Virus record (IMG/VR): IMGVR_UViG_3300003690_000046
Coordinates: 1 to 28,424 of that record
DNA: 28,424 nt
Direction: 5' to 3' (one strand)
Source: a virus
A model generated the notes under the pieces. The model was given only the letters and a program-made list of their open reading frames with translations. It was not told where the DNA came from and made no database searches. Each line of letters begins with the position of its first letter. Within the stretch, counting starts at the first letter, position 1. Positions 21,243 through 26,118 of this stretch are shown here, in pieces. Made by a program: the position numbers and the translations under genes.

Positions 21243-22082
21243 TTAGGCGGCGCGTGGAATTTTGAAGGCGGCGGCGAGGCCGACCTGGCCGTCACCTCTC
21301 CGGGTAGCGAAAAAACCTATCTGGTCGTTGCCCATATAAAGTGAGTCGTTACGCCTTATTGTGAAACCGACCCTATCGAAAATGTAATACTGTTTGAAGT
21401 CGCCGAAGATGGCTATCTTCTCAGTTGAGGTGATGGTGCCACCCAAGCCGCTCACCACATCGGTCAAGACGTTCCTCTTGCCGAGGATGAAGTCTGCCGG
21501 CGCGGCGGTCAGGCTTGGGATGGAATGCACCCCGGCGGCGGTGATCGCGATCGAGTTTACCAACGCCGCGATGGTTGACTTCATCACCCAACTGGCGTTG
21601 GCTCGGTGCTGGGCATTCAATGCGTAGTAGGTGCCGATAAGGTCGGCCCCCACGACAGCGGTCGCGCTCGCCATTGTGTAAAACGCCACATTACCATCAG
21701 AAAGTATCCCGGAATACTGGGTCGATCCGTTTCCACTGATGACGCCAACGTCCTCGAACTGTCCAGCCGCCTCCTGGAATATCTGCGAGAGCAGGGCCGG
21801 GAGGTTGATGGCCGAGTCGTCCAGGAGTTCGCGGGATACCTTGACCAGACCGCCGGACTTCTCAATGGCGAACGTCACCTGACCCACGACTGGCGTGGAC
21901 TCGGTCGGGGCTGCTTCCTCTGCGATAGCCGCCCATGTCGCGCTTGCCATCGTCGGGATATAGCCGTCCTTGGATGCGACCCGGATGACGGTGCAAAGGG
22001 GTCGAAGCTGGGAGCCTGGGACGCCCGTGTCATGTATGGTATTCGCAAGAAACGCCTCGGGGACGAAGAAGCCGCCTTCTGC
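21243..22082 (-). CDS. Major capsid protein, exon 2 (HK97-fold shell domain)
   Basis: These 279 codons plus stop follow the intron directly, beginning AEGGFFVPEAF. The region carries usual capsid features: PGSQLRPLCTVIRVASKDGYIP, a helix with KVSRELLDDS, GNGSTQYSGIL, a backbone-helix region ASWVMKSTIAALVNS, and C-terminal FGDFKQYYIFDRVGF...GFFATRRGDGQV. It could be mis-called as a separate gene from a TTG at 22085, but that codon lies within the intron's last bases and has no ribosome-binding site (only GGAG eight bases up, part of a P9-type stem). The frame joins exon 1 exactly when 275 nt are removed. Confidence 0.93.
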   Translation of the reverse strand, partial: AEGGFFVPEAFLANTIHDTGVPGSQLRPLCTVIRVASKDGYIPTMASATWAAIAEEAAPTESTPVVGQVTFAIEKSGGLVKVSRELLDDSAINLPALLSQIFQEAAGQFEDVGVISGNGSTQYSGILSDGNVAFYTMASATAVVGADLIGTYYALNAQHRANASWVMKSTIAALVNSIAITAAGVHSIPSLTAAPADFILGKRNVLTDVVSGLGGTITSTEKIAIFGDFKQYYIFDRVGFTIRRNDSLYMGNDQIGFFATRRGDGQVGLAAAFKIPRAA

Positions 22083-22357
22083 CAATTTGTTACTCCTAGA
22101 TTTTCTAGGGGACTACTCATTTCTGGTAGCCTCTCATGGTTTCCCATGAGGTCGGACTATCTCATCAACTCCTGGGAGTTGTCGGGCGCTTATGGGACTT
22201 ATTGCTCGGCTGCTCATTCCCTAGTCTCTGAACCTTCCTCGTTACTAATCGCCGTTTACGAGGCTTGGCTGCGGATCGGCTTGCCTTCCGGTTTAGCGTT
22301 CCCGCAATTCACCCGATTTTCATTTAACTATCACTAGCTAACGGGACACAAAAGTTT
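22083..22357 (-). ncRNA. Group I self-splicing intron in the major capsid gene (275 nt)
   Basis: The conserved core elements are all visible on the minus strand: P near 22301-22310 (GAATTGCGGG), Q near 22267-22277 (GATCCGCAGCC), R at 22222-22233 (GTTCAGAGACTA) and S near 22153-22164 (GATAGTCCG core). Pairings by eye: P3 22310-22316 with 22182-22188 (7 bp), P4 22302-22307 with 22269-22274, P6 22258-22263 with 22237-22242, P7 22222-22226 with 22155-22159, P8 22176-22181 with 22166-22171, and a 7-bp stem with a GAAA loop (22133-22150). A possible P7.1 suggests subgroup IA. P1 pairs exon UACGGAU with GUCC-C-GU (22341-22347, one bulge, U.G at the splice site). P10 pairs CUUUUGU (22348-22354) with exon 2 GCAGAAG over 7 bp. 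The intron ends in G. It encodes no endonuclease. Confidence 0.93.
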
Positions 22358-22825
22358 ATCCGTATCTTCTTGCATGGCTTTAACTTCGTCCGGGCTGGCC
22401 GTCTTCCAGAACATGTCATCAGACGGTGACCGCATCCACTTGATGAACGTGTCGGTCATAAATCTGGCTTCGTCCTTGACGTTGTCGCCGCACAAATCTT
22501 GGACCCACAATGGCTGGGCCATCGCCGGAAGCCCTTTTACCCAAGACGCTGGCTTGTAGTCGTTTTTGATCCTGGCGGTGGTATCCATCGCGTTGTAAAC
22601 CGCCACATCGTTGGAGGTCACCGGGATGGCGTTCAAGGGCTGGCTGAACTCCCCGCGTAGCTTCCGCACCTGGGAAGCAGCCTGGTCTATCTGGTCGGCC
22701 CTCTCCATCCTCACCTGGGCCTCGTCGGCCAAACGCTGGAAGGTGTCCAGCTCGCCTTGCTCGATGGCCGTCTGGGCCTGGTCAAGCAACGCGCCCGCTT
22801 CATTCCTAATTTCTTTGGTATCCAA
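22358..22825 (-). CDS. Major capsid protein, exon 1 (delta domain and N-terminal arm)
   Basis: These 156 codons run from a TTG start (AAGGAG eight bases upstream) to ...MQEDTD. The first ~60 residues are a charged, coiled-coil-like region typical of the HK97 delta scaffold domain, which the upstream protease would remove. Unspliced, the frame continues only seven codons past the exon into a TAG at 22334-22336. The 3' end of the exon, UACGGAU, pairs with the intron guide sequence. Joined to exon 2, the protein reads QEDTD|AEGGFFVPEAF, the usual HK97-capsid wording, and totals 435 aa. This is not a pseudogene: both halves are intact and conserved-looking. Confidence 0.9.
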
Positions 22826-22837
22826 TTCAGTGTCTCC

Positions 22838-23881
22838 TTATCGACTTATTTGTAATTCAAGGCGCATCCGGGTAAGGCGTAACCGATGGCTGGCCGTGTC
22901 CGAGGCGGTCAAGGTGACCGTGTCAGAGGCGGCACCAACTGGATCGTCCGACATAGACTCGCCGGTGGCTGGTTCAAACAGGATGCCGTCGTGGGCGCGA
23001 CAGAACGACCGGGCCTCGCTCTCTGTCCACTCCAGGACTGGCATCCGGTAAGACGTTAGGGACCAATCTCCGGACTCCGCGTGGCGCCCGAAAAGTATCT
23101 CCATCGACTTGCCGTCAAAGTCCCCGTCCTCGATGGTCTCCGAGGATGTCCGGAAGCGGTCGAAGGCGTCCGGCTCCAGGATGCGGCAAGCGTGGAAATT
23201 AGGGTATGGCTTGACCTCCGGGTCTGGGGCCGCGTAACGGCTCCCCTCCGCGGCGGCCTCATATGCCGAATGGGACCGGCAGGGCATCCATACGGACTCC
23301 CCGTCCACCTCCATTCGGTGGGCGCCGGAGCATCCCAGTTCGTCGGCCCTGGACTCGGCATCCTCCCTGGTGGCATAGGTGTCCGGGGCCTTCAAAGCCT
23401 TAGCCGCTATGGTCGATGTGGAGGGGGAAGCCCCACGGATAACGGCTGAGACCTCGACCCAGTCCAGGTCGAGGATGCGCCGGATCGTTTCTTTTCCGGC
23501 CCGGTCGTAGACCACCGCATCCCCATCGGGGAGGTTGAAGCCCACCGACCATTCCCGGATGTATTCACCGGCAATGTTGGAATAGGCTTCCTGGCCGGCC
23601 TGGGTGTCGAGGTTCATCTGCATCCTGGTATATAACCGATGCTCGTCACCCGCACCGGTCTTCTCAGGTTGTGCGAATACGACCTTCCCCACAAGTTTGC
23701 TCTGGTCGTGTCCGGCCAGGACCGGGATGGGGAGGTTGGCCCGGATGCTGGCGTCAAAGGCGGCTGGGTCGATGATGTCCCCGTCCGCGTCCCGGATTCC
23801 CATTGTGTTGACGTATGCCTCGACAATCCCGGCCTTATCGTCCAGCACTTTGGCATCCGAGACGTAAAACTTATTGATCAT
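22838..23881 (-). CDS. Prohead protease (U35/HK97 family) with an extra C-terminal region
   Basis: This 347-aa protein cleaves the capsid scaffold (delta) domain inside the prohead. The catalytic domain fills residues 1 to about 165, with His58 in VLAGHDQ, Ser112 in EWSVGFN and Glu143 in WVEVSA in the expected order. Beyond it are about 180 additional residues, including a Cys-containing segment (ELGCSGAHRMEVDG...WMPCRSH) and a YPNFHACR motif. I have seen similar appendages on phage proteases but cannot assign a function. It overlaps the portal stop and ends 12 nt before the capsid start; its stop codon abuts the capsid Shine-Dalgarno. Confidence 0.9.
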   Translation of the reverse strand: MINKFYVSDAKVLDDKAGIVEAYVNTMGIRDADGDIIDPAAFDASIRANLPIPVLAGHDQSKLVGKVVFAQPEKTGAGDEHRLYTRMQMNLDTQAGQEAYSNIAGEYIREWSVGFNLPDGDAVVYDRAGKETIRRILDLDWVEVSAVIRGASPSTSTIAAKALKAPDTYATREDAESRADELGCSGAHRMEVDGESVWMPCRSHSAYEAAAEGSRYAAPDPEVKPYPNFHACRILEPDAFDRFRTSSETIEDGDFDGKSMEILFGRHAESGDWSLTSYRMPVLEWTESEARSFCRAHDGILFEPATGESMSDDPVGAASDTVTLTASDTASHRLRLTRMRLELQISR

Positions 23882-25983
23882 ACTGCGGTCTCCTCCGGCT
23901 TGTAATTCCGGGGCATCGGTTGCCAGTTCAATGTGCCGTTGGGATGGTCGTCTATATTTTGGGCTTGCTCCACGGTGTATATCTGGCCGTTACGCTCGGC
24001 GCATGTCCGCCCGTATGGGTCGCCAGGGTCGATATAGTTATCGTCCGGGTCGCCGTCTATATCGTCGGCGCGGACGTAGCTAAAGCCCTGCTCTTTGAAA
24101 AAACCGACGGAAGTCAGATTTTGCGACCTCATTACCTCCGTACGGGCGATCAGCCGGGAGCGGGATTCGGTCTCGGTCAGGATGGACCGGAGACCAGGGA
24201 ATGGAGGGTCGGCGGTCGGGACGCCCCGCGCTAGTTGCGAAATGGAATAGCCATTCTCCAGGGCGATTGTCACTCCCCGTTGTATGGCCCGGTTGGTCGT
24301 CCGGTGGATTATCGCCGCCCTGGCCGGTGCCTGGACGAGGACCGCTTGCACAAAGGGCAGTTGCTCCGTCCACTCCAACGTCCCGGCGAAGCCGGTGGCG
24401 TTGATTCTGGCAACCGTCTTCTTGGACATGCGGAGCATGGCTTGCTCGATGATGGCCTGGAGGTCGGGTATCCCGTCCTCCAGCATGGAGGGATCAAAAC
24501 CCGGCGGGAAGTCCTTGGAATCTGAGCTGGTCCGTTCCATCCACCGGCCCAGGATGCCGTCCACCCGGTTGCGGAGTCCGCGGAAATGCCGCTGGACCCG
24601 CTTCGCCATCTGGTCGGTCTCCTCCTCCCGGTCCTCCAGGAGTTGGCGGCGTAATATCCCGGCCCGTCGCGCTACCCGCGGCGCCTTCAAGACCGGGATG
24701 GCGTCCCATTCCTTGAGCGTTCCGACCGCCAGGGACTCCTCCACCGGAGCGGCGCCAACGGCAACCGGGGCCGGTGTCCCCTCGCCTACTTCAAATATGG
24801 ATGACGGTATCCTCCGGACCGCGCCATCGGTGACGGCTTCCAGGCCAAGTTGTTCTCTGGCCTCGTTCAGCGTCAGGATGCCGCCGGCGAATAAGCCGGT
24901 TACTCTGGAGGTCATCGCCTCGCGGTCGTCCAGGCCGGAGCGCATCTCGGCCCAGTCCACGGTCAGAGTCTCGTTGCCGGGATAATCGCCAAACAGGTTC
25001 CGGTTGAAATGCCGGAGGATGCGGGAGACCATCGGCTCCAGGGTCTCCGAATGAAAGGCCATCCGGGCCTCGCGGTAGTTGCTATAGGTCGAGCGTTGGA
25101 GTCCCACGTTGGCACCGACCAAAATGGCGGGCACTCCGAAGACGGCACAGATTCTGGACTCGGTCAGATTGTGGAGTTCCGTGAGGGCCATGTCCTTCGG
25201 GGAGTTTGCCATCGGGACATAGTCGGCGTCCTCGTCCAGGATGGCGATGCGGTGGAAGTTATTCCGTCCCCCAAACTGGGACCGCCAACGGGAGCGGATG
25301 GTCGCGGCCTCTTCCTGGGTATTCAATCGCCGCTTTATCTTCAATAAGCCGCTGGGAATTCCGGCGTTCTGAAAATAATTTTTGGCGAAGTCCGTCATGT
25401 TGAGATCGAGGTTGACGTTCCGCGCCAGGACTTGGAGAGGACTCAGGCCGTAAAGGTCGCCGCCGGGATTCGGCAGCGCGAGGTGGCAAAGGTCTTCCCG
25501 CGGGATATTGTAATCCACGCCGCCGACCTCGTAGATATAACCCTCCGCGCCGTGGTCCCCGCCGATGATACGCACCCTGTCCGGTCGGAGATGGTAAAGC
25601 GCGGACACCTTGCCGCTCCGGTTGCGCTCCTTGAGCGTGTAGGTATTCCCGGCCACCATCAGGTATGTGACCAGGGTTTCGACAAAGGAATACCAGTCGG
25701 AGGTCGGGTTGGGACGATTGGTCAGGTCGTAGAGGAGGCCGGAGGTTATCTCGACAGCACCGCCGCCGGTGGCGGGAGCCTGGACATAGTACCGGGGAGA
25801 AGCCGCGCTGACCGCCAGCTCGCGGATGCAAGCGTGGACGATCTCACTCTTGGCGTAACCCTCGGTCGCGAAGGACTCGAATGAGGCATCGGGATAGGCC
25901 GCCTGCCCCACATCGTAATTGAGAGGGACAGCGACCGCGACCTCGCCCGGTTCGGCCTTACGTAAGAAGTCCCAGAACGGCAA
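23878..25983 (-). CDS. Portal protein fused to a C-terminal MuF (head morphogenesis) domain
   Basis: The protein is 701 aa. I chose the TTG start at 25983 because GGAGG lies six bases upstream and the product then begins MPFWDFLRK, like many portals; the frame is open further upstream to another TTG at 26100. Residues 1 to about 400 have HK97-type portal character: a YMVAGNTYTL-type strand, GLSPLQVLARNV, and a region around GVPAILVGANVGLQRSTYSN. The last ~95 residues carry a MuF-like end (RTEVMRSQN, a Cys in RTCAERNG, then DDHPNG). The fusion joins the DNA gate of the head with a minor head protein usually encoded separately. The stop overlaps the protease start as ATGA. Confidence 0.9.
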   Translation of the reverse strand: MPFWDFLRKAEPGEVAVAVPLNYDVGQAAYPDASFESFATEGYAKSEIVHACIRELAVSAASPRYYVQAPATGGGAVEITSGLLYDLTNRPNPTSDWYSFVETLVTYLMVAGNTYTLKERNRSGKVSALYHLRPDRVRIIGGDHGAEGYIYEVGGVDYNIPREDLCHLALPNPGGDLYGLSPLQVLARNVNLDLNMTDFAKNYFQNAGIPSGLLKIKRRLNTQEEAATIRSRWRSQFGGRNNFHRIAILDEDADYVPMANSPKDMALTELHNLTESRICAVFGVPAILVGANVGLQRSTYSNYREARMAFHSETLEPMVSRILRHFNRNLFGDYPGNETLTVDWAEMRSGLDDREAMTSRVTGLFAGGILTLNEAREQLGLEAVTDGAVRRIPSSIFEVGEGTPAPVAVGAAPVEESLAVGTLKEWDAIPVLKAPRVARRAGILRRQLLEDREEETDQMAKRVQRHFRGLRNRVDGILGRWMERTSSDSKDFPPGFDPSMLEDGIPDLQAIIEQAMLRMSKKTVARINATGFAGTLEWTEQLPFVQAVLVQAPARAAIIHRTTNRAIQRGVTIALENGYSISQLARGVPTADPPFPGLRSILTETESRSRLIARTEVMRSQNLTSVGFFKEQGFSYVRADDIDGDPDDNYIDPGDPYGRTCAERNGQIYTVEQAQNIDDHPNGTLNWQPMPRNYKPEETAV

Positions 25984-26067
25984 AAATGACCTCCACCGGC
26001 TTCGGGCTTGCGCCTCGGACACATGCCGGGAAAGGCCACTATTTGTCAATCTAGCATATCGGGGAGC

Positions 26068-26095
26068 AAAAGAAAAGCCCCGGTGGTTAGCCGGG
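26068..26095 (-). terminator. Possible weak intrinsic terminator
   Basis: On the minus strand a 5-bp GC stem (CCCGG/CCGGG, 7-nt loop) is followed by GCTTTTCTTTT. It sits after the DnaX-like gene and before the portal. The stem is short, so termination may only be partial. It also argues against the most upstream TTG start for the portal, which would place this hairpin inside the coding region. Confidence 0.4.
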
Positions 26096-26118
26096 AGCAA
26101 CCGACCAGCCGGCAGAAC

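Follow-up and report, generated by a model that had tools for sequence, protein, structure and literature searches.

A compact, predicted self-splicing group I intron in the major capsid gene of a metagenomic phage contig, with kin at three sites of the same gene

An IMG/VR record of 28,424 nt, a metagenome contig which was taken whole and is called the window here, contains a major capsid gene that is split by 275 nt. Judged from sequence comparison, these 275 nt are very probably a compact group I intron which excises itself from the capsid messenger and is kept as a mobile passenger. A coat-gene intron as such is already known; what is added here is comparative, namely three insertion sites in one gene, a shift of the target by 9 nt, a gene with two introns, and a conversion tract around one of them.

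Judged by its gene content, the record stems from a tailed phage. All features of the window described below are located on the minus strand, where the usual order of terminase, portal, S78 protease and capsid was found. The portal gene (23878..26100; Pfam PF04860, 1e-67) and the prohead serine protease gene (22838..23881; Pfam PF04586, 3e-15) precede the capsid gene. The portal frame comprises 740 aa, of which only residues 87-419 are covered by the Pfam portal match; the long C-terminal part gave no Pfam match at the cut-off used. A collection of bacterial and archaeal genomes was searched for the 25-nt intron core as an exact pattern and for capsid relatives by a pattern method; neither search gave a match.

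Exon 1 of the capsid gene (22358..22825) starts with TTG, encodes the N-terminal 156 codons including a delta-domain-like part, and is homologous to the first part of the uninterrupted major capsid proteins in 74 relatives. Exon 2 (21243..22082) comprises 279 codons plus stop and encodes the HK97-type domain (Pfam Phage_capsid PF05065, 1e-41). Beyond the 5′ splice site, the frame of exon 1 continues for seven codons (KLLCPVS) to an in-frame TAG (22334..22336), which would halt translation of unspliced RNA. An earlier sequence-only reading had described exon 1 with these seven codons, exon 2, and the 275 nt between the two ORFs, and its coordinates all proved correct. It had furthermore claimed that removal of the 275 nt restores QEDTD/AEGGFF in frame (the slash marks the junction); joining of the exons indeed gave one capsid protein of 435 aa with this junction, and 74 relatives encode the same protein without a break. 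These relatives were identified among 80 loci obtained in a scan with the joined protein. When they were aligned, as the sequence-only reading had suggested, the 275 nt were absent and all 74 capsid genes were uninterrupted over the junction; the insert is thus no translated capsid segment in these relatives, a case which that reading had named as refuting. The joined protein was also aligned to solved HK97-type capsids (PDB), and this alignment was continuous over the junction. Exact removal of the intron hence restores the host gene, as is characteristic of a group I intron.

The covariance search that had been proposed as a check yielded a match of the intron (22083..22357) to the group I model RF00028 with 105.4 bits and E=1.1e-26, covering the model in full length (positions 1-253) at an Rfam cut-off of 50 bits. 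With curated cut-offs, Rfam gave no other match anywhere in the record. The intron has a G as its 3′ end and contains P7.1; as subgroup IA is marked by an additional helix P7.1 (and P7.2) located between P7 and P3, the intron may be IA-like. The P, Q, R and S elements and the pairings P1, P3, P4, P6, P7, P8 and P10, all of which had been recognized from the letters before, are present; P2, P5, P6a, P7.1, P9, P9.1 and P9.2 were found in addition. Pair counts over homologous introns support the P2 hairpin with its GUGA loop (22325..22340), the 5′ strand of P3 (22310..22316, partner 22182-22188), and the P9, P9.1 and P9.2 hairpins (22095..22150). P4 and P5 with the P and Q elements (22270..22306) as well as P7 were located by Rfam alignment and pair counts; P7 is formed by the R and S elements (22222-22226 with 22155-22159) and encloses P7.1, the 3′ strand of P3, and P8 (22155..22226). 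P6 and P6a (22232..22269) are supported by covariation, with four P6a pairs changed on both sides. The intron thus possesses the conserved core P3 to P8 with P, Q, R and S elements which marks group I introns.

Capsid genes of the relatives are interrupted at three different sites. Site A, directly after QEDTD, is occupied by the intron of the window and at the same codon boundary in ten other contigs (L084, L085, L087, L088, L124, L157, L179, L208, L209, L210). Site B is located 9 nt downstream of A, after QEDTDAEG; its intron likewise measures 275 nt and belongs to the lineage of the A introns (L082, L083, L086, and the truncated L216 and L217). The intron at site C (codon 407/408) is 331 nt long and about 55% identical to those at A and B; it was found in L020, L024, L030, L157, and the truncated L211. 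L157 therefore carries both an A and a C intron, each of which was matched by Rfam. The B introns group with the A intron of L124 (support 99/98). We tentatively consider, with a confidence just short of even, that A and B represent one intron lineage re-aimed by 9 nt within the same gene. Such a re-aiming would have left the body common to both and replaced the first ~50 nt, which contain the guides for both exons; this exchange may have taken place by modular recombination or by reverse splicing, with no endonuclease encoded by the intron itself. Two contigs end (L208, L209) and one starts (L084) at almost one point within the intron. Breaks inside the intron are expected if co-occurring phages share a near-identical intron, and intron-bearing capsid genes may be under-assembled.

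The fold was tested with seven homologous introns having exact ends, using the P1 to P10 structure and 500 shuffles. Paired cells amounted to 98.4% in the seven introns as compared to 89.7% in the shuffles, and 21 pairs were changed on both sides, a number reached by 0 of the 500 shuffles. Sliding the partners by 1-3 columns left only 0-5 doubly changed pairs. The doubly changed pairs are located in P1, P2, P4, P5, P6a, P7.1, P9, P9.1, P9.2 and P10; two covarying pairs fall into P7.1, and a P7.2-like hairpin was recognized by sequence in the site C introns. P3 and P7 are invariant among the A and B introns of this set. The more distant site C introns retain the core, with compensated changes in P3 and a constant P7; support for P3 therefore comes from the site C kin and that for P7 purely from conservation. 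A chance origin of the fold is excluded by the E-value together with the covariation.

The splice sites had been placed by P1 and P10, and this placement is supported by exon and guide bases that vary together and by a covarying P10. The 5′ strand of P1 is the exon sequence ACGGAU with U at -1 (22358..22363), for which pair counts indicate pairing with 22341-22347, leaving one bulged C. The latter positions are the internal guide sequence GUCCCGU, that is, the 3′ strand of P1, which forms a U.G pair at the splice site and is supported by covariation. The intron strand of P10, CUUUUGU (22348..22354), pairs with GCAGAAG of exon 2 (22076-22082); P10 has the 7 bp claimed for it, and in four of these seven pairs both partners are different in the A and the B introns. 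All complete introns have the U.G pair at the 5′ site, with the adjacent pair changing from A-U to G-C between A and B, and U before the 5′ site as well as G at the 3′ end were found in every complete intron at all three sites. The guides match the intron's own flanks in each case, and the bulge in the guide strand recurs at one and the same position, with one C at site A and two at site B. A P1 with U.G pair and internal guide, a terminal G, and a P10 on exon 2 are thus present, as expected for group I introns.

Exon bases next to the insertion sites were compared with those of intron-less genes; as related sequences are not independent, the counts are consistent patterns and not significance tests. 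Every complete intron allele has T directly before the site, as compared to 37/79 intron-less relatives at A, 16/79 at B and 4/71 at C (a GGT codon in none of these four). GCAGAA, which completes P10, follows the site in all genes with a site A intron vs 4/78 intron-less genes. A search for the joined flanks, ACGGAT directly followed by GCAGAAGG, gave 18 pattern hits, none of them in an intron-less member of the window's capsid group; two of the hits are very distant (25%) capsid relatives.

Introns and exons were further compared for their identity among contigs. The first 146 intron nt of L085 and L209 are 99.3% identical, exon 1 only 72.6%; the window and L085 share 96.4% identity in the intron and 83.5% in exon 1. 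Site A introns diverge to 80% identity, and the high identity of the introns partly reflects constraint. The intron of L087 is a mosaic with L085-like ends and a middle part (P6a to P7.1) like that of L157 and the site B introns. Over 4.5 kb, L157 shows 99.4% identity to L179, which lacks the intron C of L157. Around this intron, from -184 to +77, 27 differences between the two contigs were found, 20 of which match L141, and the C intron of L141 is 99.7% the same as that of L157. Positions 5690-6044 of L157 and the corresponding part of L179 form a natural pair with and without intron, with a conversion tract of about 260 nt. From its sequence, the tract is the kind of footprint expected where repair has copied an intron into an allele that lacked it; it could in principle also be an assembly chimera in this one metagenome contig, although the match to L141 is only patchy. 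Recent transfer with co-conversion of the flanks was thus found for site C only, whereas site A offers only the contrast between intron and exon identity.

The intron does not belong to the endonuclease-encoding mobile introns. No homing endonuclease frame is located within the 275 nt, no endonuclease was found among the window proteins (PHROGs, Pfam), and six-frame family searches of the whole record for HNH, HNH_3 and GIY-YIG gave no match. The same was true for HNH_3 and GIY-YIG in 12 sampled related records, most related records being fragments, and for a six-frame search with Endonuclease_7, which was run without a positive control. As the intron lacks an endonuclease of its own, it was probably moved either by one provided in trans or simply by recombination among related phages that infect the same cell.

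Following group I chemistry, guanosine would attack behind U 22358, which forms the U.G pair of P1; once released, exon 1 would in turn attack behind G 22083, where exon 2 is aligned by P10. The joined message would encode the 435-aa coat protein, and the unspliced message a dead-end product of 163 aa. The intron would persist as a mobile passenger, with kin at three sites and a spread between phages faster than that of the exons; the site C intron would have arrived together with its gene-conversion tract.

A different reading of the split gene assumes two genes: the intron would be inactive, exon 1 would give a scaffold-like protein of 163 aa, and exon 2 would be translated from TTG 22085, so that the capsid consists of two pieces. 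We regard this as very unlikely. AGGAG-N7-TTG, a ribosome-site-like sequence with an in-frame start, is indeed located immediately ahead of exon 2 (22083..22097), the introns of the A and B relatives end with ATG, GTG or TTG and have AGGAG at an equal position, and the start of exon 2 is near the maturation cut of the LittleE capsid (PMC3706429). Against it, compensating changes have preserved the ribozyme together with both splice pairings and P10, which would be pointless without splicing, and no intron-free relative with two independent genes was seen, whereas 74 have one gene. Furthermore, a similar 3′ end at site C precedes only 28 codons, and a start there would yield no capsid; AGGAG-NTG was therefore set aside as a functional second start. 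AGGAG followed after 6-7 nt by an in-frame start was observed in the window (22083-22097, minus), in L157 (4656-4960) and in L082 (864-1162, minus). Translation of unspliced RNA of the A and B introns could start at exon 2, and the AGGAG-NTG end probably is a by-product of P9.2 and the conserved GTAACA tail.

Less probable still is a decaying relic in a dead phage which retains the group I fold and no longer splices. Nothing direct points to it apart from the record being a metagenome contig without known host, and it conflicts with exons that are intact and conserved, with the retained core elements, and with the agreement between 5′ flank, 3′ flank and guide. An assembly artefact or a translated insertion we consider practically negligible: several contigs do end within the intron, where assembly is fragile, but an artefact is already refuted by the ten more, independent contigs that carry the insert between the same two codons, and translation conflicts with a length of 275 nt, not divisible by three, as well as with several stops in the capsid frame. 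A self-excising group I intron remains the reading we strongly prefer.

Gene callers will break up or shorten the main structural gene in phages of this kind; by comparison with the relatives, the capsid gene call can be cleanly corrected and given exact splice sites. Additionally, the set of alleles (empty, A, B, C, and A+C) together with the 99.4% identical pair with and without intron provides a natural setting for the spread of endonuclease-free introns; it also suits the questions of how introns come to target a new position and what makes a ribozyme tolerable to a phage in a gene that must be expressed so strongly.

The sequence-only reading had called an intron in the coat protein gene notable and thereby overrated its rarity: such introns are documented in mycobacteriophage LittleE (PMC3706429) and in crAss-like phages (PMC7886860), and for this intron type they are frequent among the IMG/VR matches listed. 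In LittleE (JF937101, gp13), splicing was proven by RT-PCR and by N-terminal sequencing of the protein over the junction, and the lactococcal phage Tuc2009 was named as another capsid-gene case (PMC3706429). As in the window, the LittleE intron interrupts an HK97-type major capsid gene just past the delta-domain cut, is preceded by U and ends in G. In an alignment on the GG(Y/F) motif, its site (GTGG/YAVP) is 12 nt from A and 3 nt from B. However, the LittleE intron has about 0.8 kb, carries an endonuclease gene on the opposite strand, and reached only 30.7 bits with RF00028; it is therefore not a close relative of the window's intron.

CrAss-like phages of the Delta and Zeta groups contain group I introns in their major capsid genes, even several per gene (PMC7886860). 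They are large gut phages whose introns were found mainly via endonuclease domains, whereas the introns described here have 272-331 nt and no endonuclease reading frames. The best DNA match to an isolated phage was obtained with the DNA polymerase introns of the Bacillus phages BSP12 and phiNIT1, of which 56-78 nt of the core matched at 78-84%; these reside in a different gene, and in BSP12 an HNH endonuclease gene, absent here, adjoins the match.

Introns in SU10-type capsid genes and in psbA from IMG/VR have the same core, GGTTCAGAGACTA...AGCGCCC, as the intron of the window. They differ in that the capsid family and the sites are others, psbA being a photosynthesis gene; the insertion early in the capsid gene is a feature which the SU10_MCP introns share with the window. 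The IMG/VR scan for the intron core gave, among the matches listed, 112 downstream fragments with at least 17 SU10-type capsids and at least 16 PsbA, and among these matches the SU10-type capsid genes, which belong to environmental phages, host such introns as often as psbA does. In the SU10-type cases that were read, the intron is located inside the capsid gene itself. At L097, L118, L148, L176 and 13 more loci, it lies ~20 codons into the capsid gene, with a scaffold gene upstream; the 322-aa frames upstream of SU10-type introns were assigned to this scaffold gene and set aside. Among the IMG/VR matches listed, introns of this core type often reside in capsid genes.
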